A program made the position numbers and the translations under genes. Of a DNA stretch of 64,000 bases, positions 14,085-43,144 are shown in pieces. The notes beneath the pieces were generated by a model that was not told the origin of the DNA, searched no databases, and saw nothing but the letters and a program-made list of their open reading frames with translations. How positions within the stretch are numbered: the first letter of the stretch is position 1; every line of letters starts with the position of its first letter. The stretch comes from Brachybacterium massiliense (lineage in GTDB: Bacteria > Actinomycetota > Actinomycetes > Actinomycetales > Dermabacteraceae): contig NZ_FXXB01000006.1 in assembly GCF_900184245.1 (NCBI RefSeq), positions 1-64,000 on the forward strand, in the 5' to 3' direction.

Positions 14085-15308
14085 GTGTACTCCCTCCTGC
14101 TCGCGATCATCTACCTCGCCTTCATCAGCCTCGGCCTGCCCGACTCCCTCGTGGGCGCCGGCTGGCCGGTGATGCACCAGGACCTCGGCGTCCCCGTCGC
14201 CTTCGCCGGCATCGTCACGATGATCATCGCGATCGGCACGATCATCTCCAGCCTCGCCTCCGAGCGCCTCACCCTGCGCTTCGGCGCCGGGGCGGTCACC
14301 GTGGTCAGCGTGGGGATGACCGCCGCCGCGCTGCTGGGCTTCTCCACCTCGAGCGCGTTCTGGATGCTGTGCCTGTGGGCGATCCCGTACGGGCTCGGGG
14401 CGGGCGCGGTGGACGCGGCCCTGAACAACTATGTGGCCCTGCACTACGCCGCGCGGCATATGAACTGGCTGCACAGCTTCTGGGGTGTGGGTGCCTCGAT
14501 CAGCCCCTTCGTGATGGGCTACGCGATCTCCTCCGGCGGCGGCTGGTCCAGCGCCTACCTCGCGATCGGCGTGGTCCAGGCCGTGCTCACCCTCGGCCTG
14601 CTGCTCAGCATCCCGCTGTGGGGGAAGGTGGACCGCGAACGCACCCGTGCGCGGGACGTCCAGACCCATGAGCCCGACGCCGACGCGCCCGCCCAGAAGG
14701 GCAGCGCCCCGGTGCCGCTCGCGACGGCGCTCAAGGTCCCCGGCGTGGTGCTGATCCTGCTGGCCTTCTTCGCCTACTGCTCCCTCGAGAGCACGGCGCT
14801 GGTGTGGTCGGCCTCGTACATGGTCGCCGAGCGCGGCGCCCCGCCGGCCCTCGCGGCGAAGCTCGGCGCGCTGTTCATCCTGGGCCTGACCGCCGGGCGC
14901 TTCCTGGCCGGCTTCTTCGCCGACAGGATCGGGGACCGCGCCCTGATCCGCGGCGGCTTCGTCGCGATCGGCGTGGGTGCGGTGCTGCTGGTGCTGCCGC
15001 TGCCCACCGACGTGGTCGGCTTCGTGGGCCTGGTGATCATCGGCCTCGGCTCCGCACCGGTGTACCCGGCGATCATCCACTCCACACCGGGCAACTTCGG
15101 CCGACGCAACTCCCAGGCCATCATCGGCATCCAGATGGCCGCCGCCTATGTGGGCTCCACCCTCGCCCCGCCGCTGTTCGGGGTGCTGTCCACCTGGACC
15201 GGGATGTGGATCTTCCCGGTGTACATCGGTGTGCTGACGGTGCTGGGACTGGTGATGTCCGAGCGGCTGAACCGGGTGGTGCCCGCCCCGTCGGCCGCGA
15301 CGGCGTGA
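14085..15308 (+). CDS. MFS transporter, FucP-like sugar permease
   Basis: The protein has about 407 residues and twelve membrane helices. It begins VYSLLLAIIYLAFISLGLPDSLVGAG and has GVGASISPFVMGYAIS and SAPVYPAIIHSTPGNFG, features of the FHS/FucP-like branch of MFS. The frame is open far upstream through the TetR gene, so the start is uncertain. The GTG at 14085 was chosen because it lies after the TetR operator and -10 box; an ATG at 13989 is possible but sits in front of the operator. It is followed 90 bp later by an alpha-L-fucosidase gene, suggesting uptake of fucose or fucosides. Confidence 0.8.
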   Translation: MYSLLLAIIYLAFISLGLPDSLVGAGWPVMHQDLGVPVAFAGIVTMIIAIGTIISSLASERLTLRFGAGAVTVVSVGMTAAALLGFSTSSAFWMLCLWAIPYGLGAGAVDAALNNYVALHYAARHMNWLHSFWGVGASISPFVMGYAISSGGGWSSAYLAIGVVQAVLTLGLLLSIPLWGKVDRERTRARDVQTHEPDADAPAQKGSAPVPLATALKVPGVVLILLAFFAYCSLESTALVWSASYMVAERGAPPALAAKLGALFILGLTAGRFLAGFFADRIGDRALIRGGFVAIGVGAVLLVLPLPTDVVGFVGLVIIGLGSAPVYPAIIHSTPGNFGRRNSQAIIGIQMAAAYVGSTLAPPLFGVLSTWTGMWIFPVYIGVLTVLGLVMSERLNRVVPAPSAATA

Positions 15309-25671: not shown

Positions 25672-28440
25672 TCAGGTCACGGCCGCTGCCGCTGCCGAGA
25701 CCCTGCCGTCCGCATCGAAGGACGCCAGCACTGTGAGCTCAGCGCCCTCCTCCAACAGCTGGGTCAGCCCATCAACCTTCACGTTCACGCGCCGCTCTCC
25801 GGCTGGCATCACTCGTTGGTCCTCGACGAGCACCTGGTCCCCGTCCCACACGAAGATCTTCGCAGTGCCCTTGACAGGCGCGTCGAACACTGCGGTGATC
25901 CGGTCCTTCTTCGTCGAGACGGAGACGATCTCGAGAGATCCATCGGTGGGGCCGTGCCCGCCGAGCGGAACCCCGTCGCCGGAGCTCTGCAGGATCGACT
26001 CGGGGGAGTCCACGGAGAGGGCCGCGGTCGAGGGCACGACCGCCTCTTTCGGCTCCGAGCCAGCGTCCTCGAGCCCCTCGAGGGTGACCAGGCCCCAGCG
26101 CCACGGGTCTGCCCTCACCCCGCGGAACGTGGACCAGCCCACCCGGACCTGCGCCGTCTGGTTCTGGGTATCTGAGTCGTTGATCAGCACGTTGAATCCC
26201 ATGCGGGCAGGGTCGATACCGTCGGGGAGCACGTCGAAGGGGATCTTCGCCTCGAGGTCGTATCCGGAGTACTTCTCTTCGGTCTCCGCCATGGTGACGG
26301 CCACCTCCATCCCGGGGGCGGTCTCCTCGGCCTCTCCCTGATGGCTGTCGCGATCGCGCCCAGCGCCCACCGGCCCTGTCATCGACCCGAGCGACGGCAT
26401 GATCCCGGCGATGAAGGTCTGTGACGTGTTCGCGGCATTGCCGCGCGGGTCGACGTAGATCTCGACGGAATCGGTACGACGCTGGCGCTTGTTGTCGTCG
26501 ACCGGAAGGATCGTGCCGCGGACGTCATCGGTGACCGAGACGAACACGTACAGGTTCTCGTCGTCGAAGGTGAGCCAGGCCTGGCCGGTGACGGAGTCGG
26601 TCGTGCCGCCCGGCGTGCCTTCTCCTTCCCAGATCGCTTCGACCGGGATGGGCTCTCCGGGATACTCCTCCGCATCGCGCACTCCGTCGATGCTCGGCGC
26701 AGCATCCGCGCGCTGTGCGGCGTAGCTCGGCACGAGATTCATCGTCACCGTGCGTTCCGCAGTAGAGCCTTCGGAGCCGGTCCGGATCACCACCGGCCAA
26801 GCCCCTTCGTTCTCCGAGCGGTTCGCGGCGGGCAGAGCCGGATCCGTGCTGATCACCTCGACGGTGTGCGACACACTCTCTCCGGGGGCGACGGAAGCGA
26901 TCTCGAGCTGGGCGGGCGAGACCTCGAAGCCGTTCGGCACGTCGATCTCCACCGTTCCGCCTCGGGGCTGGGAGGAGAGGTTGCGGGTGATCATCTCCAG
27001 CGTGTGCGACCGACCCTGGGCGACGGCGAACAGCTCGGGCACCAGTGCATCAAGATGCTTGAGCTCCAGTGCCTGGGTCCACTCCCGGAACTCACCGATC
27101 TCCTCGAGCGGAGCGATCGTGGACTCGAGCGCCCCGCCGACCCGTATCGGCGCGCTGTTGGTCCCCGTCGCGCTGCCCGAGGCCACGGTGACCTCGACCC
27201 GGGCGGTCTCGCCCGGGGTGAGTTCTGCACCGGCGGTGAGCTCGAACGAGAAATCGTGGAGGGTCCCTGCAGCGAGCGCGGGAAGGGGCTGCTCCGTGCT
27301 GCAGCTCCATCCTTCGGGAGCTGTGAGCGAGATGGTCCCGGACTCGAGATCGGCATCTGCAGGGGCCGCGACGATGACCGAGACGGACAGCGGCTCGCCT
27401 CCGACGAACTCGTAGCGTTCGGGACTGACTTCGATCCGCGTCCCATGGGGGAGTCCGTCCTCGAGCTCGAGGGCGGCTCCACGCAGGGCGGCATCCCCTC
27501 CCGTGGCCGGGTCCGGAAGCGGGGTGCGCGAGTGGAGCACCGTCAGCCAGGTGCTCCCGATCTCCTCCGGGTTCGAGGGACTGGCGGGTCGCTCCGCCCA
27601 GCCCTGACTGGCGTAGGTCCAGATCGCCTCATCCTTGACAGCGGACCAGCGCTTCCCGTGCCGGGCGCTCTCGGTGCCCTCCCAGACGCCGAACACCAGA
27701 TCACTGGCCACCGTTGGGGTGTAGCCGTGCGAGACCCCGTCAGGACCTGTCGGCCCCTCACCGTTCGCGCCGCTGCGCAGGATCCGGTCAGGTGTCCAGG
27801 GTGTAAGGCCCTCCGCGAGGTGCTCCGGGAAGGCGTCGGGGTCTCCGGCGCTCAGGTACGCCTCGAGCGCGTACATCGCCGCCTGCTGGTGGTTGCCGTG
27901 GTTTCCCGCGACGGCGGAGGGATTCATCGTGATGATGACCTCCGGCCGAGTCGCCCGCACCACTCGCACGATCCGTCCGAGCAGCTCGTCCCCACCCCAG
28001 ACCTCACGAGACAGGGGAGCGCTCGCGGTGTAGTAGAAGTCCACGGCATCGAGGTTGTACACGTGCTCGATGCCCGCGAGTCGCACGGCATCGCGCTCCT
28101 CGGACTCGCGCAGGAGGCCCAGCGGCGGGCCTTCCTCGAGGCCGACGGCATTGCCGCCGCCCTCGCCGCGGGTGGCGGTGATGACTCCGACACGCATGCC
28201 ATGGAACTCGTTCCACTGGCCGAGGGCCGCCAAGGTGCCGGCTTCATCGTCAGGGTGGGCGCCGATGAACAGGATGTTCAGCTTCACTGCTTCCGGCGCC
28301 TCCTCGGCGATCGCTCGTTCTGCAGGCGTCAGCGCGAGCCCGGTGGTGGACAGCGCGGTCGACGCGCCGAGCACTCCGGTGGCTTGCAGCACCCGCCGAC
28401 GACTCACGTTTGTACGCGACCTGCTGTGACAGTTCTCCAT
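25672..28440 (-). CDS. Secreted multidomain PIG-L/LmbE-family deacetylase with CBM9-like module
   Basis: The 922-residue precursor has a Tat signal (NVSRRRVLQATG, to about residue 45) and a PIG-L deacetylase domain (about 52-300). The domain has the zinc motif AHPDDEAGTL and a second His region GNHGNHQQAA. After it come two NEW3-like beta-sandwiches (about 335-450 and 470-570), a CBM9/DOMON-like domain (about 575-755: PSIDGVRDAEEYPGEPI, LTFDDENLYVFVSVTDDV, SVEIYVDP) and a C-terminal Ig-like region. PIG-L enzymes remove N-acetyl groups from amino sugars. This one would act outside the cell on a bound glycan or glycoconjugate. It is divergent from the ROK operon, with a hairpin after its stop and AGGAGAGG before its ATG. 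Confidence 0.88.
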   Translation of the reverse strand: MENCHSRSRTNVSRRRVLQATGVLGASTALSTTGLALTPAERAIAEEAPEAVKLNILFIGAHPDDEAGTLAALGQWNEFHGMRVGVITATRGEGGGNAVGLEEGPPLGLLRESEERDAVRLAGIEHVYNLDAVDFYYTASAPLSREVWGGDELLGRIVRVVRATRPEVIITMNPSAVAGNHGNHQQAAMYALEAYLSAGDPDAFPEHLAEGLTPWTPDRILRSGANGEGPTGPDGVSHGYTPTVASDLVFGVWEGTESARHGKRWSAVKDEAIWTYASQGWAERPASPSNPEEIGSTWLTVLHSRTPLPDPATGGDAALRGAALELEDGLPHGTRIEVSPERYEFVGGEPLSVSVIVAAPADADLESGTISLTAPEGWSCSTEQPLPALAAGTLHDFSFELTAGAELTPGETARVEVTVASGSATGTNSAPIRVGGALESTIAPLEEIGEFREWTQALELKHLDALVPELFAVAQGRSHTLEMITRNLSSQPRGGTVEIDVPNGFEVSPAQLEIASVAPGESVSHTVEVISTDPALPAANRSENEGAWPVVIRTGSEGSTAERTVTMNLVPSYAAQRADAAPSIDGVRDAEEYPGEPIPVEAIWEGEGTPGGTTDSVTGQAWLTFDDENLYVFVSVTDDVRGTILPVDDNKRQRRTDSVEIYVDPRGNAANTSQTFIAGIMPSLGSMTGPVGAGRDRDSHQGEAEETAPGMEVAVTMAETEEKYSGYDLEAKIPFDVLPDGIDPARMGFNVLINDSDTQNQTAQVRVGWSTFRGVRADPWRWGLVTLEGLEDAGSEPKEAVVPSTAALSVDSPESILQSSGDGVPLGGHGPTDGSLEIVSVSTKKDRITAVFDAPVKGTAKIFVWDGDQVLVEDQRVMPAGERRVNVKVDGLTQLLEEGAELTVLASFDADGRVSAAAAAVT

Positions 28441-28506: not shown

Positions 28507-28601
28507 AGTGGCGGTGGCAAGGGCTCCAGGAGGGGCACTCTTTCTTTCATCTCCTGTTGTTTCTTGCGGCGTCGTGGAGGGGGGAGGCGGTCGCCAAGGC
28601 C

Positions 28602-28637
28602 TTGCGCGCTCACTTTCTGCACGCTATAAAGTAACTA
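28602..28637 (+). promoter_or_regulatory. Promoter of the ROK-ABC-lyase/kinase operon
   Basis: TTGCGC (28602-28607) and TATAAA (28625-28630) are spaced by 17 bp. The expected transcription start falls on or next to the ATG at 28637, so the mRNA is probably leaderless. The ACTTT/AAAGT inverted repeat (28612-28632) spans the spacer and -10 box, which suits repression. Confidence 0.7.
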
Positions 28638-29932
28638 TGTCGATGGTGACCCCCTCCGCAGCGAATGGCGCCCAGCGCCTCCGCCGCCATGAAGCCGTGG
28701 TGAGCGCACTGCTCGAACACGGCACCATGTCGCGCACCGAGCTCGCGGAGATCACCGGCTACTCGCAGTCCTCGATGACGTCGTCCATCCGCCACCTGAT
28801 ACGTCTTGGTCACGTGATCGAGACCGGGCGCGGCCGGTCCACGGGCGGCCGGCGCCGGACCCTGCTGGAGTTCGACAGGCGCAGCGTGCTGCTCATGATC
28901 CTGTCCGTCGACGCGGGCCACATGGTGGCCAGACAGGTCGACCTCTCCGGGACCGTGCACGTCCAGGTGCGACGCAAGCTGGACCCCGAGCATCCGCAGG
29001 CGGCGGTCACCGCTGCCGTCGAAGCGCTCCAGAACGCCGCCGAGGCACAATCCACCTGCGCGATCATCTCGATGCCCGGCGTGGTCTCGGCCGACGGCGA
29101 CGTCTCGCTGGCTCCCGCTCTCGGTGCCTCACCCGGCCGTCGGCTGCAGGATCTGGTCGCCGAGATCTCCGGCCTGCACACCATCGGCGAGAACGACGTC
29201 AACCTCCTCGCACTGGGCGAGTCCGAGGACGGCGCTGTCCGTGACGGTGACGACTTCGGACTGATCTACGTCGGGGACGGGATCGGCGGTGCTCTGGTGC
29301 TGAACGGTCAGGTGCGCCGCGGCGCTACCGGCTCCGCCGGCGAGATCGGCTTCCTGCCCTGGAGCGGAGCTGACGGCGGAACGCTGACTCGCGCTGTCAG
29401 CGGCACCGCCGTCGGGCCTCTGGAGTACGACTGGTCCGTCCCGGCGCTGTCCGCCAAGGCCGAGGCGATCGGCATCGAGTCCGGCACCACCCACATCGTC
29501 ACGGCCCTCGAGCAGAGCGACTCGCCCGACGCCGCGATCCTCCTCGGGCAGGCGCTGGATGCGTGGGCGTACGCCGCGATCGTGCTCACCTGCGTGGTGA
29601 ACCCCGGCCGGATCGTCCTGGCCGGTGATGCCGCCACTCTCGGCCCTGCCTCCCGTGAAGCACTCGCCGACCGCGTCCGCGCGGGAAGTCCGTCGCCGGT
29701 GGATGTCTGCTATGCCGAGCTGGGCGACCGCGCGATCGTCAGCGGCGCCATCGCGCAGGTGCGCACCGCTCCCTGGATCTTCCTGCCCGAGGAAGACAGT
29801 CCGCACCCGCAGTCCCCGGAGCCCGCGGCTCCCGACTCCGAGCGCCGTCCCGGACCCGAATCCATGGCCGAGCCGCACCCGAACAACGAAACCCCGTACA
29901 CGAACACACCCCACCTCGAAGGAGAGATCTGA
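28637..29932 (+). CDS. ROK-family transcriptional repressor
   Basis: The 431-residue protein has an N-terminal winged helix (about residues 12-70: RLRRHEAVVSALLEHGTMSR, ELAEITGYSQSSM) and a C-terminal ROK sugar-kinase-like domain. That domain has GDGIGGALVLNGQVRRGATG and GSAGEIGFLP; the usual zinc Cys cluster is not obvious. ROK repressors sense sugars or sugar phosphates. An unusual Pro/Glu-rich tail of about 50 residues ends the protein. The start ATG at 28637 lies six bases after TATAAA. Its TGA overlaps the ATG of the binding-protein gene by one base. It probably controls its own operon and the divergent PIG-L gene. Confidence 0.88.
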   Translation: MSMVTPSAANGAQRLRRHEAVVSALLEHGTMSRTELAEITGYSQSSMTSSIRHLIRLGHVIETGRGRSTGGRRRTLLEFDRRSVLLMILSVDAGHMVARQVDLSGTVHVQVRRKLDPEHPQAAVTAAVEALQNAAEAQSTCAIISMPGVVSADGDVSLAPALGASPGRRLQDLVAEISGLHTIGENDVNLLALGESEDGAVRDGDDFGLIYVGDGIGGALVLNGQVRRGATGSAGEIGFLPWSGADGGTLTRAVSGTAVGPLEYDWSVPALSAKAEAIGIESGTTHIVTALEQSDSPDAAILLGQALDAWAYAAIVLTCVVNPGRIVLAGDAATLGPASREALADRVRAGSPSPVDVCYAELGDRAIVSGAIAQVRTAPWIFLPEEDSPHPQSPEPAAPDSERRPGPESMAEPHPNNETPYTNTPHLEGEI

Positions 29933-30996
29933 TGTTCAACCGACGCAAGTATCTGCAGGGCACCGCACTGGCTGGGACGGTTGCCGCTCTGGCGGCCTGT
30001 GGCCTCGACGGAGGTGGCAGCAGCTCCGGCGGTGGAGAGGGCGGCGCCGTGCCGTTCACCATCTACACCGCCCGGGACAGTGCGCTCGCCGAGAAGGTGG
30101 TCGCAGACTTCGAAGCGGCCCACCCGGAATGGGAAGGCATGGCGACCATCCTCAACCTCGGCGCCCAGGAGGCGCTCGAGCGTGTCCGTGCCGAGAAGAG
30201 CAATCCTCAGGGTGATGTCTGGTGGGGAGGCACCCGCCAGCAGCTGACGCAGGGCGCCGCCGATGGCGTGCTCGCAGCGGCGCCGCAGGAAGTCGTGGAC
30301 GCGGTCCCGGAGGACTACCGCGACCCGGAGGGGCTGTGGGTCGGCGAGATGCTCCTCGCTGAGCTGTTCATGATCAACACGGAGATGATCAGCGGCGACG
30401 AGATCCCGGGCGACTGGGACGATCTGCTGGACCCGCAGTACGCCGGGAACATCGTGATCCGCGACGTCGAGGCCTCCGGCACCATGCGCGCGATCTACTG
30501 CGCCATGATCGATCGCCTCTACGAGGAGGAGGAATCGCCGGAGCCCGGGTACGAGTGGCTGCTCGGCCTGGATGCGAACACTGTGGCGTACGCCGCCAAC
30601 CCCACCGACATGTACCAGCGGGTAAGCCGCGAAGAAGCTGCCATTTCTCCGTGGAACCTGCAGGACATCATGCTGCAGAAGCACGGCGACTTCCCGATGT
30701 TCGACGCCGTGGTCCCTGCCTCCGGTGCACCGATGCTGGTGGACGGACTGGCCAAGATCGCGAACGGCCCCGGGGGCGCCGGTGCCGATGCCTTCATCAG
30801 CTACCTGATGAGCGCAGAGGTGCAGACGGCGATGGCGGAGGAGTACTTCCAGATCCCCGCCATCGAGCTCGAGGAGGAGCCGCAGTGGCTCGTGGACCTC
30901 GGACTGAAGGAGATGGAGGTCGACTGGGACCGCATCGCCGAGAACGAAGAGGAGTGGATCAGCTACTGGGCGAGCAACATCAAGGGCCAGGGCTGA
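29932..30996 (+). CDS. ABC transporter substrate-binding lipoprotein, AfuA/FbpA family
   Basis: The 354-residue precursor starts MFNRRKYLQG and has a lipobox LAAC at about residues 20-23, then a Gly/Ser linker. The mature protein (VPFTIYTARDSALAEKVVAD to the end) has the fold of ferric/organic-anion binding proteins related to AfuA and PotD. Features are NPQGDVWWGGTRQQL, GLWVGEMLLAELFMIN, DWDDLLDPQYAGNIVI and SGAPMLVDGLAKIANGPGG. The adjacent Tyr pair that holds Fe3+ in FbpA is not apparent, so an organic solute is more likely. GAAGGAGA precedes the ATG, which overlaps the ROK stop. A strong hairpin after the stop may protect this part of the mRNA. Confidence 0.88.
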   Translation: MFNRRKYLQGTALAGTVAALAACGLDGGGSSSGGGEGGAVPFTIYTARDSALAEKVVADFEAAHPEWEGMATILNLGAQEALERVRAEKSNPQGDVWWGGTRQQLTQGAADGVLAAAPQEVVDAVPEDYRDPEGLWVGEMLLAELFMINTEMISGDEIPGDWDDLLDPQYAGNIVIRDVEASGTMRAIYCAMIDRLYEEEESPEPGYEWLLGLDANTVAYAANPTDMYQRVSREEAAISPWNLQDIMLQKHGDFPMFDAVVPASGAPMLVDGLAKIANGPGGAGADAFISYLMSAEVQTAMAEEYFQIPAIELEEEPQWLVDLGLKEMEVDWDRIAENEEEWISYWASNIKGQG

Positions 30997-31042: not shown

Positions 31043-31063
31043 ATGCCATTTTCGGAGGGAACC

Positions 31064-32155
31064 ATGAATTCTGTCGATCTCGAGAGCATCACGAAGATCT
31101 ACGGCGGCACCACCCCGTCGGTCGACGACGTCTCACTGACCGTCGGTGATGGTGAGTTCTTCACACTTCTCGGCCCGTCGGGATGCGGGAAATCGACCAC
31201 GCTCCGCATGATCGCCGGTTTCATCAGCCCGACATCGGGCACGATCCGCTTCGGTGACCGAGACGTGACCTCGCTGCCGCCGCACAAGCGTGACACGGGC
31301 ATGGTCTTTCAGAACTACGCGCTCTTCCCTCATATGGACGTCGCCGGCAACGTCGCCTACGGCCTGTCGATGCGTCGAGTCGGCAAGGAGGAGAAGCGCA
31401 CTCGCGTGGCGAAGGCTCTGGAGATCGTCGGGCTGGACGGGTATGCGGACCGCCGGATCGACCAGCTCTCCGGCGGCCAGCAGCAGCGCGTCGCACTGGC
31501 CCGCGCGCTCGTGATCGAACCGTCGGTCCTGCTTCTCGATGAACCGCTGTCGAACCTGGACGCCAAACTGCGCGAGGAGACCCGCGCCCAGATCCGCCAA
31601 ATCCAGCAGCGCGCGAGCACCACGAGCGTCTACGTCACCCATGACCAGTCCGAAGCGATGGCGATGTCGGACCGCATCGCGGTGATGAGCGCCGGTGTGC
31701 TCCACCAGGTGGGAGCACCTCGAGAGATCTACCGCCGGCCCGCGACCAGCTTCGTAGCCCGCTTCATCGGTCGCTCCAACGTGCTCGAGGGAGCCATCGA
31801 GGGTGTCGAGAGCTCGAGACTCGCTGTACGACTGGACGGCGGCGAAGCCCTGTTCGCACCGATCGTGAACGGCACGCTCTCCTCCGAGGTGGTCAAGGGA
31901 GATCGCGTCGCACTGTCGCTGCGCCCGGAGACCCTGAGGATCGATCCGCTCGAGGACACCGCTGAGGTCCCGGTCGGCGCGATCCGAGCCACCGTGAGGA
32001 TGTCCGAGTTCACCGGGTCGAGCTGTGTGGTCTGGCTGCGCTACGGAGAGCAGGATCTGCTCGCGACCATTCCGGACACGGATGATCTCCCGCAGGACGG
32101 GGAGGACGTCCTGCTGCGTCCCGACATCGAGCGGACCTGGGTGGTGGCGCCGTGA
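31064..32155 (+). CDS. ABC transporter ATPase, FbpC/PotA-like
   Basis: The 363-residue ATPase has GPSGCGKST (Walker A), VFQNYALFPHMDV (Q-loop), LSGGQQQRVALARAL (signature), LLLDEPLSNLDAKLR (Walker B, D-loop) and VTHDQSEAM (H-loop). A TOBE domain follows from about residue 280. The start ATG has TCGGAGGG before it. The stop overlaps the permease GTG (GTGA). It belongs with the AfuA-like binding protein and the fused permease as one importer. Confidence 0.92.
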   Translation: MNSVDLESITKIYGGTTPSVDDVSLTVGDGEFFTLLGPSGCGKSTTLRMIAGFISPTSGTIRFGDRDVTSLPPHKRDTGMVFQNYALFPHMDVAGNVAYGLSMRRVGKEEKRTRVAKALEIVGLDGYADRRIDQLSGGQQQRVALARALVIEPSVLLLDEPLSNLDAKLREETRAQIRQIQQRASTTSVYVTHDQSEAMAMSDRIAVMSAGVLHQVGAPREIYRRPATSFVARFIGRSNVLEGAIEGVESSRLAVRLDGGEALFAPIVNGTLSSEVVKGDRVALSLRPETLRIDPLEDTAEVPVGAIRATVRMSEFTGSSCVVWLRYGEQDLLATIPDTDDLPQDGEDVLLRPDIERTWVVAP

Positions 32156-33930
32156 CACTGACTGCGAAACCCCAGGCCGCGGCGGTTCCGCGGAGGCGGC
32201 GCTCCCGGTTGCAGCTCACCGCCTCGGACAGATTCGTCTATGCACTGTCGATCCCGCTGGTGCTCATCCTGCTGATCTACATCGTCTTCCCGATGATCGC
32301 CACCGTGGTCACCTCCATGGAAGGCGGCGGCGCCGTCTACCAAGACTTCCTGGGCGGGAACTCTCGCCGGGCGCTCTTCCTGTCGGTCGGGATCTCGCTG
32401 GCATCGGTGCTCACCTCCGGAGTTCTGGGCACGGCGCTCGCCGTACTGCTGACCCGCTTCTCCTTCGCCGGGCGCTCGGTCCTGAAGGTCTTCGCGCTCC
32501 TGCCGTTGGCGCTGCCTCCGCTGATCGGTGCGATGTCGTTCTACTACCTCTACGGCACCAGCGGCATCATCCCGCGCCTGCTCGAGGAGGTCATCGGGAT
32601 CCCGGCGTCCACCACGTCGTTCGACGGCCTGGCCGGGGTGATGCTCGTGCACACGCTGACTATGTACCCGTACTTCTACCTCTCCGTCAGCGCCGGGCTC
32701 TCCGGTTCTGACGCCTCCCTCGAGGAGGCAGCGATGAATCTCGGCGCGAGCCGGGCCACCATGTGGCGCACAGTGCTGCTGCCGATGCTCACGCCGGCGC
32801 TGGTCTCCGGTGCGCTGCTGACCTTCATGGTCTCGATGGCCTCGTTCACGGCCCCGCAGTTCTACAACGTCAACACCCTGACCATGCGGATCGTCGCAGC
32901 CCGCACCTCAGGCGCCTACGACCTCGCGGCGGCTCAGTCCACCGTGCTGTCCGTGGTCTCGATCCTCTTCCTGCTGCTGATGCGCTGGTACCAGAACCGT
33001 CGGCTCACCCGTTCCATGTCGAAGGGAACTCCACAGGCGCTCAAGGTCGTCCAGGGGGTCCTGCCTCAGATCGGTGCCGCGCTCGGCTCCGCAGTCATCG
33101 TCGCGATCCTGGTCGCGCCGGTCGCGTCGATCCTGCTGCTGGCCTTCACGGTCAACGGCACCTGGACCACCCAGATCCTCCCGCCCGAGTACACCCTGCA
33201 GAACTTCATCGACATCTTCACGGAGCCTCGCAGCCTGCGACCGATCCTGGTCTCCTCGCAGATGTCCGCGGTGGCGATGGCCGCATCGATCGTGGTGGGC
33301 GTCCTGACCGCATGGGTGATCGCACGCTGGAAGGGCAAGGGCGCCGGAATCCTCGACCTCATGATCATGCTGCCGTGGGCACTGCCGGGCACTGTGGTGG
33401 GCGTCAACATCGTCACCGCTTTCGCCTCGCCCACCCCGTTCAACCTCGGGCAGGTGCTCATCGGCTCCCTCTGGATCCTGCCGCTGGCGTACTTCATCCG
33501 CTTCGTGCCGCTGGTGTTCCGCAACGCCGCTGCCTCGCTCGCACAGATCGATCCCTCGGTCGAGGAGGCCGCGCAGAACCTCGGTGCAGGTCCGTTCCGC
33601 ACTTTGCGCACGATCACCCTGCCGCTGATGGCGCGCGGAGTGATCGCCGGTGCTCTGCTCGCCTTCGTCCAGGGCTTCGGCGAGTACGTCGCCTCCGTGG
33701 TCATCTACCCGGCCCGCTACGTGCCGCTGTCGGTGGAGATCTACAACCGTCAGTACTCCAACGACCTCGGATCCGCCTTCGCCTACGGCTCGCTGCAGGT
33801 GCTGGCGATCCTCATCGTCCTGATCGTCTCGGAGCTCCTCGAGAAACCGGGGCGCTTCCGCCGCCGCCGTCGTCCCGCAGGAGCCGACACCACCGCTGCC
33901 ACCACCACTGCCGCTGCCCCTGCAGCGTGA
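32152..33930 (+). CDS. Fused double ABC permease, FbpB/AfuB-like
   Basis: The 592-residue permease carries two BPD_transp_1 domains of about six helices each. Each has an EAA loop: EEAAMNLGASRATMWRTVLL near residue 197 and EEAAQNLGAGPFRTLRTITL near 475, which contact the ATPase. This two-domain architecture is normal for FbpB/AfuB. The C-terminus is Ala/Thr-rich. It starts at a GTG that overlaps the ATPase stop by three bases and ends 12 bp before the lyase/kinase gene, so all are one operon. Confidence 0.9.
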   Translation: MTLTAKPQAAAVPRRRRSRLQLTASDRFVYALSIPLVLILLIYIVFPMIATVVTSMEGGGAVYQDFLGGNSRRALFLSVGISLASVLTSGVLGTALAVLLTRFSFAGRSVLKVFALLPLALPPLIGAMSFYYLYGTSGIIPRLLEEVIGIPASTTSFDGLAGVMLVHTLTMYPYFYLSVSAGLSGSDASLEEAAMNLGASRATMWRTVLLPMLTPALVSGALLTFMVSMASFTAPQFYNVNTLTMRIVAARTSGAYDLAAAQSTVLSVVSILFLLLMRWYQNRRLTRSMSKGTPQALKVVQGVLPQIGAALGSAVIVAILVAPVASILLLAFTVNGTWTTQILPPEYTLQNFIDIFTEPRSLRPILVSSQMSAVAMAASIVVGVLTAWVIARWKGKGAGILDLMIMLPWALPGTVVGVNIVTAFASPTPFNLGQVLIGSLWILPLAYFIRFVPLVFRNAAASLAQIDPSVEEAAQNLGAGPFRTLRTITLPLMARGVIAGALLAFVQGFGEYVASVVIYPARYVPLSVEIYNRQYSNDLGSAFAYGSLQVLAILIVLIVSELLEKPGRFRRRRRPAGADTTAATTTAAAPAA

Positions 33931-33942
33931 GAGGAGCCCCTG

Positions 33943-36453
33943 TTGTCCCAGGAGCAACACCCCGCTGAGGACCGGAACCTCCCGGACCCCGTCGCCGAGA
34001 AGCCCCCCGGCCCCGCCGGTGGGACCGACCGCATCCCTCTGACGGGCCGGGAGGACCTGTCGATCTACTGGGACAACCACCTGCGCGTCGCCTTCGAGCA
34101 GTCCGCACCGCACGACCTGCCGGCGATGGTCGAGGCATCCCTGGCCCACGTGATCATGCTGCGCGGCACAGGGGCGCTCACCGAGCAGCGCGCCGACCGC
34201 CTGCTGGGTGGCCTGCTGCAGCTGTGGCAACGCTGGGGAGACGAAAACCCTGGCGGCGACTGGACACCGCGTGTCTCCTCGCACCCCTTCGACGGATCGG
34301 TGGAGGACCCGTACTACTACCTCGAACAGCAGCTCGCCGCCGCCTGCGGGATCAGCACCGCCGAGCTCGACGTGCAGCTGGCCCGGAGTCGCAACGATCT
34401 CGATGCGGGTGTCTTCAGGATGATCCTGCGCCGGGGCATCCTCGACCTGGCGGAGCTGCTGCTGCAGACGGTCCGGGACCTCACCGCCGCGGCCTCGCGC
34501 ACCGTCGACGCCGTTCTGATCGGGCACACCCACCGCCGCCCGGCTCAGCCCACCACCATCGCCCATGTGCTCTCGGGGCTCGCCGAGGCCATGCTCTCCC
34601 AAGCCGAGGAGCTGCTGTCCGTCTACGACGAGATGAACGTGTCACCGCTCGGCTCAGCGGCGTTCACCGGTACGGACATCGCGATCGACGCGCAGCGCGT
34701 CGCCGATCTGCTCGGCTTCGGAAGCTCGTTCACGGCCTCCTACGAAGCCGTCGCCGGAGCCGAGCACTTCATGCGTCTCGCCGCGCTGCACGCCCGAATC
34801 GGCGCGACCGGGGCGCGCTGGGCTCGGGTGCTGCAGGAGTGGATGAATCTGGGGTGGGTCCGGATGCCCACGGAGTTCACCCAGGGATCCTCGATCATGC
34901 CGCAGAAGAAGAATCCGGTGGTCCTCGAACATCTGGTCTCGATGTCAGGCGCCGCGAACGGTGAGATGTCCTCGGTCTTCACGACGATCGCCGCCGGCTG
35001 GTACGAGGACTCCAACAACGCCACCACCGATGTGCAGAAGCATCTGTGGTCGTCCACGGAAAGGGTGCTGCGCGTGGTGCGGCTGCTGGACGGCCTCACC
35101 CTCGAGATCGAGCCGGAGGAGCTGCCCACGGACGAGGAGATCGTTCGCTCAGGCGCGACCACGACCGCCGTCGCCGAAGCCCTGGCCACCCGTTCTGTCC
35201 CGTGGCGCGGCGCGCATGACGTGGTGGGGATCCTCTTCCGCCAGGGAGACCCCACCACCTGGACCGCTCGACAGGTGGAAGACGCACTCGTAGATGCCGG
35301 CATCGAGGACGACGGGGCGCTGCGCGATCTCGTGCTCGAGTCCGGCCGGGAGCCTCGACGCATCCTGGATCGCGAGCAGCCCGGATCTCCCGGGCGCGGC
35401 CCCATCGCAGTGGCGTTGGGTGTGGCCGAGGAGCGGGCAGGGCGCCTCGCCAGCTCGTTCTCCGAGCGCAGAGAAGCGCTGGACGGAGCGCGAGAGGAGC
35501 TGGTGCGGACGGCAGAGGAGCTCGTCGGCACAGCAGAGCCAGGGCTGGTGCTGAGCGTGATCGGGAACGCGAACCTCGATGTGATCGTCCATCGTGCCCG
35601 TTCGTTTCCGCCTGCGGGCACCGAGCAGATCGTGCCGGGCATCGAGGTGAGGCTCGGAGGATCTGCCGCGATCGCCGCTCAGCGCTCCGCCCAGATGGGC
35701 CTGCCCACGCGCCTGGTGGCGAAGGTGGGCGATGACCCGACAGGAGAGATGGTGCGCACCCTCGCCAGCGAGGACGGACTGGTCACCGACCTGATCATGG
35801 ACTCTGCTCATGACTCCGGGCTCACCGTGGTCGCCGAGGACCGAGGTTTCGAGCGGTCCTTCCTTTCCTCGCTCGGAGCGATGGGACGCTTCGGCCCGGG
35901 CGACGTCCCCGATACCGCGCTCAGGGCGCGGTATGTGCTCTGCAGCGGGTACTTCCTGCTGCCCGAGATGAAGGGTGCGGCCACCGGGTCGCTGCTGACC
36001 GCCGCACACCGACATGGGGCGATCACGGCCGTCGACACCGGCCACCCGGACGGCGGCTGGAACGAGGAAGTGCGCAAGGAGCTGCTGGAGCACGTGCTGC
36101 CGCACACCGACTACTTCCTGCCCAACGAGAGCGAGCTGACCGGTATCACCGGCATCGATGACGTCGATCGGGCGGCGCAGCACCTCTCCGCCCATTGCGG
36201 GACCACCGTGATCGCGAAGCTCGGCGCGCACGGTGCACTGCTGGCCGCGGACGGGAAGGTCACGAGAGCCGCCGCTCCCAGCGTCGAGGTCGTGGACACC
36301 ACCGGAGCCGGAGACTCGTTCAACGCGGCGCTGCTGGCCGCCCTGCACCGCGGAGAGAGCACCGCGGATGCCCTGGCCTCCGCAGTGAGGACGGCGAGCG
36401 AACTGGTCGCCACTGCGCCGGAGCAGCGGGCCGAGGTGCTGCGGCGCGCGTGA
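33943..36453 (+). CDS. Fusion of argininosuccinate-lyase-family enzyme and PfkB carbohydrate kinase
   Basis: The 836-residue protein joins two enzymes. Residues about 35-505 are a fumarase/aspartase-superfamily lyase of the argininosuccinate lyase type. All three signature regions are present: ARSRNDLDAG, GHTHRRPAQP with the catalytic-site His, and GSSIMPQKKNP with the catalytic Ser. Residues about 540-836 are a PfkB sugar kinase, with SVIGNANLDVIVH, GGSAAIAAQRSAQMG, LPNESELTGI and DTTGAGDSFNAALL with the catalytic Asp. A short Glu/Arg-rich helix links them. Start is TTG at 33943 with AGAGGAG six bases before. The lyase should release fumarate or a similar acid from an N- or C-linked conjugate, and the kinase should phosphorylate the freed or attached sugar. 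It is last in the ROK-ABC operon. The substrate is unknown. Confidence 0.88.
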   Translation: MSQEQHPAEDRNLPDPVAEKPPGPAGGTDRIPLTGREDLSIYWDNHLRVAFEQSAPHDLPAMVEASLAHVIMLRGTGALTEQRADRLLGGLLQLWQRWGDENPGGDWTPRVSSHPFDGSVEDPYYYLEQQLAAACGISTAELDVQLARSRNDLDAGVFRMILRRGILDLAELLLQTVRDLTAAASRTVDAVLIGHTHRRPAQPTTIAHVLSGLAEAMLSQAEELLSVYDEMNVSPLGSAAFTGTDIAIDAQRVADLLGFGSSFTASYEAVAGAEHFMRLAALHARIGATGARWARVLQEWMNLGWVRMPTEFTQGSSIMPQKKNPVVLEHLVSMSGAANGEMSSVFTTIAAGWYEDSNNATTDVQKHLWSSTERVLRVVRLLDGLTLEIEPEELPTDEEIVRSGATTTAVAEALATRSVPWRGAHDVVGILFRQGDPTTWTARQVEDALVDAGIEDDGALRDLVLESGREPRRILDREQPGSPGRGPIAVALGVAEERAGRLASSFSERREALDGAREELVRTAEELVGTAEPGLVLSVIGNANLDVIVHRARSFPPAGTEQIVPGIEVRLGGSAAIAAQRSAQMGLPTRLVAKVGDDPTGEMVRTLASEDGLVTDLIMDSAHDSGLTVVAEDRGFERSFLSSLGAMGRFGPGDVPDTALRARYVLCSGYFLLPEMKGAATGSLLTAAHRHGAITAVDTGHPDGGWNEEVRKELLEHVLPHTDYFLPNESELTGITGIDDVDRAAQHLSAHCGTTVIAKLGAHGALLAADGKVTRAAAPSVEVVDTTGAGDSFNAALLAALHRGESTADALASAVRTASELVATAPEQRAEVLRRA

Positions 36454-40105: not shown

Positions 40106-43100
40106 ATGGCCCATACCACCGCGCCGCGTTTCGCACTGCGCCTCATGTGCGCTGGCGCCGCTGCCGCATTGACCCTCGCAGTGGGCGCAGCCCCCAGCTT
40201 CTCCGAGGGCTCCATCGGCTCCGAGCCGAACCGTCCGGGCTATCACTACACCCCCGAGCGGAACTGGATGAACGACCCCAACGGCATGGTGTACCACGAC
40301 GGCCTCTACCACCTGTACTACCAGTACAACCCTGAGGGGAGCGCCTGGGGGAACATGTCCTGGGGGCACGCGACCAGTCCCGACCTCATGACCTGGACCG
40401 AGCAGCCCCTTGCGATCGGGCAGACGTTCGATGATGACGGCAACAGCATCGAGGACATCTTCTCGGGTTCCGTCGTGGTGGATCACGGCAACACCAGCGG
40501 GCTCGGCACGGGCGACGAGGACCCGCTCATCGCGCTGTACACCAGTGCCTACACGGACAACCACCCTGAGCATGCCGGGAAGCAGGCGCAGTCCCTCGCG
40601 TTCTCCACGGACGGAGGATTCACCTGGGAGAAATACGAGGGGAATCCTGTCGCAGATCGCGACTCGGGCAATTTTCGCGACCCGAAGGTGTTTTGGTACG
40701 AGGGGGACACGCCGGCGGAATCCCATTGGGTCATGGTGGCGGTCGAGGCGACCGACTACCAGGTTGTCGTCTACACCTCGGACGATCTCCTCCACTGGGA
40801 GTTCGCCTCCGATTTCGGGCCCGCGAATGCGGTCGGCGGCATCTGGGAGTGCCCGGACCTCTTCGAGCTCCCCGTGGACGGGAACCCTGAGGAGACCCGC
40901 TGGGTCATGATCGTGAACCTCAACCCCGGCTCTGTGGCCGGGGGCAGCGGCGGCCAGTACTTCGTGGGCGACTTCGACGGGAAGACCTTCACCGCCGAGA
41001 ACGTCGTGGAGGATCTCCCCGCTCCGGACGGTGACGTCCTGTGGGACTTCGAGGGCGGGGACTTCTCCGGATGGCACGTCACGAACCAGGCGGACCATGA
41101 CGAGAACGGGCCCTTCGGGCGGGCCCCTGCGTCGGGGCCTGTCAGCGGGCAGCAAACCGTCCACGGCGTCGAGGGCGAAGGTTTCGTCAACTCGTTCCAC
41201 GGCGGCGACGGACCCGTCGGCACCATGGAGTCCGAGCCGTTCACCGTGGAGCGCGATTACCTCAGCTTCCTAGTCGGAGGTGGGAGAAATCCGCACCAGG
41301 AAGGCACCCGGCCCGATAACGACCCGCCGGCGGGGACCCTGCTCTGGAACGGCTTCGAGGAAGTCGACGGCACGGTCACCCTCGAGGACATGGGCTGGGC
41401 CGGAACCGGCGACCTCGCTGCCGCCGACAACCCGGTGACCGAGGGTGGCGAGTACGCGATCGGCGACAAGCGCATCAACACCTGGGAGGGCGGGCCCCAC
41501 GGCGACGACAACGTGGGGACGCTGACGTCCCCCGAGTTCACCATCGATGCCGACCACCTCAACATGCTGGTGGGCGGCGGTGCACGTTCGGAGGCGTCCG
41601 AGGAGTCGCTCGAGGTGCAGCTGCTGGTCGACGGCGAGGTGGTGCGGAGACTGACCGGTCCCGGGGATGGTGCACTGAACTGGCGCCACTGGGACATCTC
41701 GGACCTGCAGGGGCGTACTGCGCAGTTGCGTGTGGTCGACGAGGCCACGGGAGGCTGGGGCCACCTGACCCTCGACCACGTCGTCATGGGCGACGAGGTC
41801 GCGCTGCCCCGGGGTGATGAGACCACGGTGAACCTCGTGGTCGATGGCGAGGTGGTCCGCACCGCGACCGGTTCCGACAGCGAGAATCTGGACTGGCAGA
41901 GCTGGGACGTGGCGGAGTTCGCGGGCCAGCAGGCCTCGCTCCGCATCGTCGACAACAGCAGCGGCGGGTGGGGGCACATCCTCGTCGATCACTTCGTCGC
42001 CACGGACGCGCCGATCGCCTCGTCGTTGGAGAACTATCAGTGGTTGGACTGGGGCAGCGACTACTACGCGACCGTCTCCTACTCCGATGCACCTGACGGG
42101 AAGCGAATCACTCAGGGCTGGATGAACAACTGGCTTTACGCAGGTGACGTCCCGGTGTCGCCGTGGGTCTCGGCGATGACCCTTCCGCGCGAGGTCGGGC
42201 TGACCCGCACCGACCACGGCATCGAGCTCGTCCATCACCCGGTTGAGCAGGCCGAGGGCTTTCTCGACGAGGCGTCGAGCCGCACGGTCACCGATGCACT
42301 GGCGTCGGCGGGCACTGCACCGCTCAGCGCCGACGGCGGATCGATCGGCGGCGACATGCTGCGCGTCGATCTGAGTCTCGATCCGGGGTCATCGGACCGC
42401 GCGGGGATCGTGTTGCGCGCTTCCGATGGATTCACCGCCGATCCATCCACCAGTGCTGATGGTGCGCAGGGGACTCTGGTGGGCTACAACGCCGAGCGCG
42501 GCAGGGTCTTCGTCGACAGGACTCGCTCGGGCGAAGTCGACTTCCACAGCGCCTTCCCCGGCCAGGTGGAAGCGCCTGTCACGCTCGAGGAGGATGGAAC
42601 GGTCTCGTTCAGCATCTGGCTGGACCGTTCTTCCGTCGAGGTGTTTGCACAGGACGGCACAAGGACGCTGACCGAGCTGGTCTTCCCTGACGTCGACTCC
42701 CAGCAGGTTCTCGCGTTCGCTGAGGGAGGGGATGCGCGGATCGTCCACGCGACGATCACGCCGGTGGAGCAGACAATGTTCAACGCGAGGCCGACCGATC
42801 CGACCGATCCGGCCGATCCGACGGAGCCTGCCGATCCGGCCGATCCGACGGAGCCTGCCGATCCGGCCGATCCGACGGAGCCTGCAGCGCCGACGGAGCC
42901 GAGAGATCCGGCTGATCCGACCGGGCCGGCAGATCCGACTGGGCAGGCAGTGCCGTCCGGAGGGCCCGGCGGCGGGGGCCAGTCGCAGGGCGGCGCTCCG
43001 GAGAGCTCCGGGCCGCCTCGCGCCGGTGAGGGCCTCGCCATGACCGGCATCAACGCCCTCACAGGAGCGGCGGCAGCGCTCGTGCTGGTCGTCGCCGGAG

Positions 43101-43144
43101 CATCAGCAATCGTCATCGCCCGAGCCCGGCGGCGGCGACTCTGA
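40106..43144 (+). CDS. Cell-wall-anchored GH32 fructan hydrolase (levanase/inulinase type)
   Basis: The 1012-residue precursor has a signal peptide (residues 1-35) and a GH32 five-bladed propeller with the nucleophile WMNDPNG (about residue 55), FRDPKV (about 190) and ECPDLFELP with the acid/base Glu (about 250). Two beta-sandwich insertions of about 150 residues each (about 310-635, with GWGHLTLDHV and GWGHILVDHF) split the propeller. The propeller resumes with YYATVSYSD and ends in a GH32 C-terminal sandwich. A DPTEPADPA repeat linker leads to a sorting signal: LAMTG, a hydrophobic helix and RARRRR. It releases fructose or fructo-oligosaccharides at the cell surface. GGAGGG precedes the ATG. 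Confidence 0.92.
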   Translation: MAHTTAPRFALRLMCAGAAAALTLAVGAAPSFSEGSIGSEPNRPGYHYTPERNWMNDPNGMVYHDGLYHLYYQYNPEGSAWGNMSWGHATSPDLMTWTEQPLAIGQTFDDDGNSIEDIFSGSVVVDHGNTSGLGTGDEDPLIALYTSAYTDNHPEHAGKQAQSLAFSTDGGFTWEKYEGNPVADRDSGNFRDPKVFWYEGDTPAESHWVMVAVEATDYQVVVYTSDDLLHWEFASDFGPANAVGGIWECPDLFELPVDGNPEETRWVMIVNLNPGSVAGGSGGQYFVGDFDGKTFTAENVVEDLPAPDGDVLWDFEGGDFSGWHVTNQADHDENGPFGRAPASGPVSGQQTVHGVEGEGFVNSFHGGDGPVGTMESEPFTVERDYLSFLVGGGRNPHQEGTRPDNDPPAGTLLWNGFEEVDGTVTLEDMGWAGTGDLAAADNPVTEGGEYAIGDKRINTWEGGPHGDDNVGTLTSPEFTIDADHLNMLVGGGARSEASEESLEVQLLVDGEVVRRLTGPGDGALNWRHWDISDLQGRTAQLRVVDEATGGWGHLTLDHVVMGDEVALPRGDETTVNLVVDGEVVRTATGSDSENLDWQSWDVAEFAGQQASLRIVDNSSGGWGHILVDHFVATDAPIASSLENYQWLDWGSDYYATVSYSDAPDGKRITQGWMNNWLYAGDVPVSPWVSAMTLPREVGLTRTDHGIELVHHPVEQAEGFLDEASSRTVTDALASAGTAPLSADGGSIGGDMLRVDLSLDPGSSDRAGIVLRASDGFTADPSTSADGAQGTLVGYNAERGRVFVDRTRSGEVDFHSAFPGQVEAPVTLEEDGTVSFSIWLDRSSVEVFAQDGTRTLTELVFPDVDSQQVLAFAEGGDARIVHATITPVEQTMFNARPTDPTDPADPTEPADPADPTEPADPADPTEPAAPTEPRDPADPTGPADPTGQAVPSGGPGGGGQSQGGAPESSGPPRAGEGLAMTGINALTGAAAALVLVVAGASAIVIARARRRRL
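42806..42886 (+). repeat. Three 27-bp tandem repeats coding the Pro/Asp linker
   Basis: Three 27-bp units start at 42806, 42833 and 42860, each coding a nine-residue DPADPTEPA-type segment. They form the cell-wall-spanning linker of the GH32 enzyme. Copies one and two are identical and the third differs at its last base. Confidence 0.85.

Follow-up and report, generated by a model that had tools for sequence, protein, structure and literature searches.

A fused protein of 836 residues, joining an argininosuccinate-lyase-like domain to a PfkB sugar kinase, is encoded at 33943-36453 on the forward strand of a 64,000-nucleotide stretch of Brachybacterium massiliense DNA (contig NZ_FXXB01000006.1, hereafter the window), and the fusion is real and conserved. 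Its lyase half belongs to a group of lyases with a shared pocket signature, whose genes lie in a catabolic gene set common to three phyla (Actinomycetota, Alphaproteobacteria and Deinococcus). It is well supported that an N-acyl-glucosamine compound enters the route encoded by this gene set and that an amino-sugar phosphate results. Our best single guess for the substrate, given a probability of about 57%, is bacillithiol or glucosaminyl-malate (GlcN-malate), both the substrate and the bond broken being predictions.

The open reading frame (ORF) begins with TTG, runs for 836 codons without a stop, and follows a GAGGAG sequence whose end lies 6 bases from the start codon; scans for promoters and terminators gave nothing useful. 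Residues 141-338 matched Pfam Lyase_1 (PF00206; 102.1 bits, cut-off 27), placing them in the aspartase/fumarase superfamily, and residues 538-822 matched Pfam PfkB (PF00294; 148.5 bits, cut-off 25.8). The two-domain architecture claimed in an earlier sequence-only reading of the window was thereby borne out, and the motifs it had named (SRND, GHTH...AQP, GSSxMPxKxNP and GAGD) were all found, as SRND, GHTHRRPAQP, GSSIMPQKKNP and TTGAGDSF, the last holding the GAGD typical of PfkB kinases. The active-site region GHTHRRPAQP (residues 194-203) lies at 34522-34551 and the flexible-loop motif GSSIMPQKKNPVVLEH (residues 315-330) at 34885-34932, both on the forward strand.

An AlphaFold model, for which 20 sequences taken from the window and the genome loci were aligned, showed two mostly confident domains, the lyase at about residues 40-528 and the kinase at 535-836 (mean predicted local distance difference test score 83.4, predicted template modelling score 0.58), with weak spots at the joint (530-533) and in short loops of the lyase half, and with low confidence for residues 1-39. 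The predicted lyase half superimposed on argininosuccinate lyase 1TJW (Z 36.1, 434 residues, 2.9 A), as expected for the lyase fold, and its best Foldseek E-value was with the ethylenediaminedisuccinate (EDDS) lyase of Chelativorans sp. BNC1 (PDB 6G3D-6G3I and 6RX8; 24% identity), which is also the nearest PDB sequence of the separate lyase encoded at locus L052. The kinase half was nearest to 3H49, the putative Escherichia coli ribokinase YdjH (Z 36.6), and also matched 3IN1 and other ribokinases. It has a complete PfkB domain, but differs from the known members of the PfkB/ribokinase family in being fused to a lyase and in its scores, which were under the ribokinase cut-off (TIGR02152; 108.5 bits, cut-off 299.65) and under every ribokinase, fructokinase and 2-keto-3-deoxygluconate kinase cut-off among the best 25 families listed.

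The fusion was found in nine loci, the window included, and a chance or assembly join was rejected on this ground. The eight other loci encode the same two-domain ORF, cut in one (the L006/L015 organism) by a contig end within the gene; carriers include other Brachybacterium (Brachybacterium paraconglomeratum and Candidatus Brachybacterium merdavium, the latter cut by a contig end), Helcobacillus massiliensis, Tessaracoccus sp. SD287, a Propionibacteriaceae metagenome-assembled genome and one more genome from the order. The distribution was patchy within the genus (5/38 genomes, counting the window genome and one match cut by a contig end), and the fusion occurred in one of nine other genomes of the family. 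At E<=1e-40, eight of 396 genomes from the order matched, six with fusions and two with the domains as separate genes, and among 394 genomes from the class the matches were the window genome and nine with the lyase alone, the lyase gene in these nine being followed by a ROK-family sugar kinase gene instead of PfkB. A lyase profile searched against 396 genomes of the phylum at E<=1e-100 matched two, one of them the window's. Phage carriage was not supported, as a search of a phage collection at E<=1e-30 yielded no match.

Loci L052 and L053 each have, as called, a lyase gene that runs four bases into the start of a PfkB gene (in L052, 9972-11462 and 11459-12400). In the lyase tree, these two loci were the sister group of the fusions (Shimodaira-Hasegawa-like approximate likelihood ratio test, SH-aLRT, 98), and the seven fusions used formed one clade (SH-aLRT 98). 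The simplest history suggested by these data would be a single fusion event of two overlapping genes. The separate domains are adjacent genes in the same context, not homologues in unrelated contexts, which the sequence-only reading had named as the outcome that would count against it.

A common change in the pocket distinguished the lyases of 33 loci, here called signature lyases, from argininosuccinate lyase (ArgH). These comprise 20 actinobacterial loci, among them the window, and 13 from plasmids (ten alphaproteobacterial and three Deinococcus). At four aligned pocket positions, occupied by D, L, Y and R in all ArgH proteins examined from the host family (n = 20/20), the signature lyases carried V, H, D and N (n = 32) or T (n = 1), without exception (33/33). 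In the window fusion these are V326 and H330, within the flexible-loop motif, and D356 and N358, which with S357 are encoded at 35008-35016 (forward strand). The TH and SSIMPQKxNP segments, part of the catalytic motifs of ArgH, were kept in the signature lyases, the second Ile being Val in two Deinococcus rows. It appears from the alignments that the leaving-group pocket was changed in one common way, with the elimination machinery kept.

The first and third of these positions correspond, counted along the PDB alignment of the L052 lyase, to D290 and Y320 of EDDS lyase, D356 being the residue aligned to Y320 and to the ArgH Tyr. D290 and Y320 are two of six residues located 4-6 A from the substrate that were chosen for engineering amine acceptance (PMC12363623, in part). 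The fusion has V and D at these places; it differs further from EDDS lyase in reading THRR where that enzyme has TQRK, and in carrying a kinase, which EDDS lyase does not.

The fusion shares with ArgH the fold (Z about 36) and the SRND, TH and GSSxMPQKxNP motifs, but scored 195.1 bits against TIGR00838, below the curated cut-off of 279.5, and a canonical ArgH is encoded elsewhere in the window genome. The earlier statement that this is not an arginine-biosynthesis enzyme thus held. The 27 signature lyases analysed formed one clade with the pocket columns (SH-aLRT 97) and also after removal of those columns and their neighbours (SH-aLRT 95), in trees with long branches whose deep joins are less sure. 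Six signature rows (L006, L049, L054, L056, L059 and L062) and 14 of the 20 ArgH proteins were left out of the trees, and the lyases of Cupriavidus (L104) and Streptomyces (L105) served as outside rows in the first tree only.

The pocket residues of two lyases of the same superfamily, from Haladaptatus (L074, 8929-10416; G, K, D, G) and Caballeronia (L075, 8815-10392; V, Y, H, G), were unlike both groups. Neither an importer homologue nor a PIG-L gene was found near them; lacking these and the signature, they were set aside. In L104 (1441-3975) the ArgH-like lyase gene adjoins that of a tripartite tricarboxylate transporter binding protein, which suggests another lyase for an imported acid. 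On the Streptomyces plasmid (L105, 3609-9765), the ArgH-like lyase is accompanied by an ATP-grasp enzyme, an adenylation-domain protein and pyridoxal phosphate (PLP) enzymes, and these genes probably form a natural-product cluster.

The neighbourhood of the signature lyases was compared across the 33 loci; where genes came from a simple gene caller, the start sites are rough. An ATP-binding cassette (ABC) importer, of one of two types, stood beside the lyase in all of them (33/33), in agreement with the earlier claim that the enzyme is encoded with its own importer. A sugar kinase (fused or separate PfkB, or ROK) accompanied the lyase in 29/33 loci, fused to it, overlapping it or in the same cluster, which upholds the proposal that the two reactions, lysis and phosphorylation, are steps of a single route; a PIG-L gene was found in 22/33. 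All 20 actinobacterial loci had a ROK regulator, a solute-binding protein, an ATPase and a fused permease in the lyase cluster, together with a kinase (nine fusions, two separate PfkB and nine ROK). The PIG-L gene adjoined the regulator gene, divergent from it, in 15 of these 20; it was missing in L047, L052, L053 and L058, and the L060 sequence ends before its place. The PIG-L gene of H. massiliensis (L051, 13897-16472) lies in two frames, split near 14590 according to BLAST and overlooked by the PIG-L profile; this is either a real break or a sequencing error, and the gene was counted as present.

Plasmid searches recovered 41 records with the L052 lyase (E<=1e-30) and 35 with an Aminobacter lyase (E<=1e-60). 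Fifteen of these 35 regions were read, ten alphaproteobacterial, three from Deinococcus, one from Haladaptatus and one from Caballeronia, two of them being unannotated and gene-called. The alphaproteobacterial and Deinococcus loci had an importer of the CUT1 sugar type instead of the SBP_bac_6 type, a PIG-L gene in 7/13 and a PfkB or ROK kinase in 9/13; in the stretch read, those of Bosea, Shinella, Terrarubrum and Deinococcus aetherius had lyase and importer but no PIG-L and no kinase, and two Deinococcus loci had a second, short PIG-L gene. Parts of the gene set were therefore found swapped for alternatives that do the same job: SBP_bac_6 or CUT1-type importer, PfkB or ROK kinase, and NagB or a SIS-type NagB-II-like protein. 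Two of these loci had further neighbours: the lyase operon of Terrarubrum flagellatum is closely followed by nadA, a gene for L-aspartate oxidase and nadC (L071, 11717-15101), and a type I-C CRISPR-Cas set (L072, 1-6635) lies close upstream of the lyase and importer genes of D. aetherius.

A reciprocal test was made with the Aminobacter PIG-L, which at E<=1e-60 gave 21 matches in 72,556 plasmid records. The lyase lay 4,419-4,755 bases away in 21/21, although nine of these records are from Aminobacter and the 21 are not independent cases. Conversely, that PIG-L was present in 21 of the 27 alphaproteobacterial plasmid records with the lyase, and absent from six. In 20 ArgH control loci, read with flanks of about 9 kb as far as the contigs reached, there was no homologue of either importer, PIG-L, NagB or the ROK kinase, and one had a PfkB gene about 7.8 kb away. 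A Corynebacterium ArgH-like locus (L012) was left out of these controls on account of the low score of its called lyase (38 bits); the locus does hold an ABC ATPase homologue.

In the window, the operon on the forward strand comprises a ROK-family transcriptional regulator (28508-29932, with a possible start at 28637), a solute-binding protein of the SBP_bac_6 type (29932-30996), an ABC ATPase with ABC_tran and TOBE_2 domains (31043-32155, with a possible start at 31064), a fused ABC permease with two BPD_transp_1 stretches (32152-33930, overlapping the ATPase gene by 4 bases) and the fusion. Divergent from it, on the reverse strand (25672-28440), lies the gene for a PIG-L amidase/deacetylase of 922 residues (PF02585; 70.8 bits, cut-off 28.2), which has an AHPDDE motif, NEW3 and CBM9-like domains, and a leader (SRRRVLQATG) that looks twin-arginine-like by eye. 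Downstream of the operon, at 40106-43144, a protein of 1012 residues with GH32 N- and C-terminal domains, of the fructan/sucrose hydrolase type, is encoded.

In lyases of this superfamily with intact catalytic motifs, elimination from a succinyl- or malyl-type group yields fumarate, and the same is predicted for the signature lyases. Five loci had a gene resembling glucosamine-6-phosphate deaminase, from two families, NagB and the SIS-type NagB-II-like proteins. The NagB of Paroceanicella (L077) exceeded the TIGR00502 cut-off (242.1 bits, cut-off 236.9), whereas those that end the L052 and L053 operons stayed below it at 208-210 bits (208.9 for L052; 208.4 and 210.3 in the genome searches of L052 and L053), although the best families of the L052 protein were still glucosamine-6-phosphate deaminase models; the NagB of Loktanella (L063) is as annotated. 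The SIS protein of Roseomonas (L070) fitted NagB-II best by far (NF046059; 313.4 bits), under the cut-off of 430. NagB and NagB-II-like proteins belong to different families that share one reaction, and together they point to glucosamine-6-phosphate. A NagB over the cut-off was encoded elsewhere in the genome in all the fusion genomes searched (7/7).

An N-acyl-glucosamine compound is indicated by the PIG-L gene, the NagB-type genes and the switch of kinase, none of which the earlier reading mentions, and the natural candidate known to us carries an O-linked malate: a glucosamine core and a C4 acid leaving as fumarate would make GlcN-malate. The earlier suggestion of a sugar carrying an N-linked dicarboxylic acid is thus not supported as stated, and its N-linked variant is weighed below as a rival. 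The natural compound known to us that joins an N-acyl-glucosamine core to an acid that could be released as fumarate is bacillithiol. Bacillithiol is Cys-GlcN-malate, made via N-acetylglucosaminyl-malate and GlcN-malate, and its S-conjugates are cleaved by Bca (PMC4360819, in part); together with its derivatives, it has been proposed to be more widespread than any other bacterial thiol (PMC6282198, in part). The LmbE/PIG-L-like enzymes identified by 2014 all acted on N-acetylglucosamine cores, or N-acylglucosamine in the case of Mca and Bca, according to a review (PMC4101496, in part). Breakage of a C-O bond would not be foreign to the lyase fold, as the ArgH-like XcbC breaks a bond other than C-N, eliminating phosphate from phosphosulfolactate (PMC8727900, in part); the fusion matched the XcbC family at 122.3 bits (cut-off 575).

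In the proposed scheme, to which we give even odds as a whole, bacteria of several phyla would eat bacillithiol by means of a secreted PIG-L, an importer for GlcN-malate, a lyase that splits the C-O bond of glucosaminyl-malate and a glucosamine kinase, lyase and kinase being one protein in Brachybacterium and its relatives. The PIG-L amidase would strip the N-acyl group outside the cell, either cysteine or its S-conjugate from bacillithiol or acetyl from N-acetylglucosaminyl-malate, and the ABC importer would take in GlcN-malate, with the ROK regulator controlling the operon. The N-terminal lyase domain would then remove fumarate from a glucosamine-dicarboxylate conjugate, most likely GlcN-malate, by beta-elimination, the C-terminal PfkB kinase would convert the freed glucosamine to glucosamine-6-phosphate, and NagB, encoded elsewhere in the window genome, would yield fructose-6-phosphate and ammonia. 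Here we infer fumarate release, the order of the steps, the identity of the substrate, C-O cleavage, secretion of PIG-L and regulation. BshC (TIGR03998) was found in none of the 18 actinobacterial carrier genomes (the search did not cover the Deinococcus and alphaproteobacterial carriers) and in three of 14 control genomes. Recycling of the host's own bacillithiol was rejected for these 18 carriers, which argues for scavenging of bacillithiol made by others.

Several observations weigh against the proposed scheme. The deaminase-type gene was present in just 5/33 loci, and of the four scored against NCBIfam only one passed its cut-off. The nine genomes with ROK-type loci had no NagB over the cut-off, two of them no match at all, and their best SIS proteins scored 196-208 against the NagB-II cut-off of 430, with a model that also matches 14/14 control genomes. 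No PIG-L was seen in the stretch read of 11/33 loci (L060 ends early), besides the split gene of L051, and no kinase in that of 4/33. The window PIG-L, whose domain has LnmX as its nearest PDB relative, scored 39.8 bits against BshB1 (TIGR04001, cut-off 182.5), which is still its best NCBIfam match, with Mca about as near (37.3 bits); the two alphaproteobacterial PIG-L proteins scanned matched Mca and not BshB, and the short one of Deinococcus wulumuqiensis fitted MshB best, below the cut-off. Creatininase-like genes in the nine ROK-type loci and Amidohydro_2 genes in L052, L053, L058 and L061 have no role in the scheme; inserted genes of these two kinds lie at L058 8437-10259, L061 7938-9997 and L052 12409-13452. 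The ArgH controls come from the host's family only, sequence alone cannot separate C-O from C-N cleavage, and GlcN-malate is a substrate predicted from the genes.

A first rival explanation is that the substrate is another secreted metabolite, perhaps not yet described, that carries a C4 or similar acid on an N-acyl-glucosamine core (such as a sulfo- or substituted malate glycoside) and is degraded by the same pathway logic. In its favour, simple GlcN-malate breakdown leaves the Creatininase and Amidohydro_2 genes of some operons idle, and the NEW3 and CBM9-like domains of the window PIG-L suggest a larger or surface-bound target. Against it, the gene set occurs in Actinomycetota, Alphaproteobacteria and Deinococcus alike, and no compound of this kind with the wide distribution of bacillithiol is known to us; we hold this explanation to be unlikely, at about one chance in five. 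Somewhat less likely still is an N-linked hexosamine-succinate, such as the Heyns compound of aspartate and a ketohexose (2-deoxy-2-aspartyl-glucose), in which a break of the C-N bond would give fumarate and glucosamine. ArgH and EDDS lyase, the nearest solved structures, cleave in this way, and the kinase and NagB steps would follow likewise; the explanation leaves, however, no role for PIG-L, which is tied to the lyase in 21/21 plasmid records and has known relatives that require an N-acylated glucosamine.

Catabolism of the Amadori compounds fructosyl-aspartate or fructosyl-asparagine, where the lyase would yield fumarate and 1-amino-1-deoxyfructose for a fructoselysine-6-kinase-like kinase, is improbable. 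In its favour, the PfkB domain has a weak match to fructoselysine 6-kinase (50.5 bits, cut-off 247). Against it, ribokinase is the better match, the deaminase-type genes fit NagB or NagB-II rather than a fructoselysine-type deglycase (313 against 27 bits for the L070 SIS protein), and PIG-L would stay unexplained. A duplicated argininosuccinate lyase, joined to a kinase by accident and with residual ArgH function, would account for the fold and catalytic motifs; it was rejected, and we consider it very improbable, given the score under the ArgH cut-off, the separate clade, the pocket changed in 33/33 loci and the canonical ArgH in the genome.

Fructose-asparagine and fructoselysine catabolic operons combine import, a kinase and release of a sugar phosphate, with SIS-type deglycases. 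The operons described here follow a similar general logic, with a proposed fumarate-releasing lyase and PIG-L and NagB-type genes instead of these deglycases. The operon amidase resembles BshB, Bca, Mca and MshB, of the PIG-L/LmbE-like group, in its PIG-L domain and AHPDDE motif, but is multidomain, has a twin-arginine-like leader and falls far short of the cut-offs for BshB1 and Mca. The biosynthesis of bacillithiol and its use in detoxification have been described (sources as cited above, in part), and a thin check of the literature, confined to open-licence PMC papers, found no report of bacteria consuming it.

If bacillithiol is the substrate, the lyase would represent a new enzyme activity, performing the job of a glycosidase by elimination and not by hydrolysis, and the fusion offers a one-protein assay for the route. 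The label 'argininosuccinate lyase' given to members of the signature clade in annotated plasmid records would be corrected. Released thiols would then be a shared nutrient, with a dedicated scavenging route in unrelated phyla.

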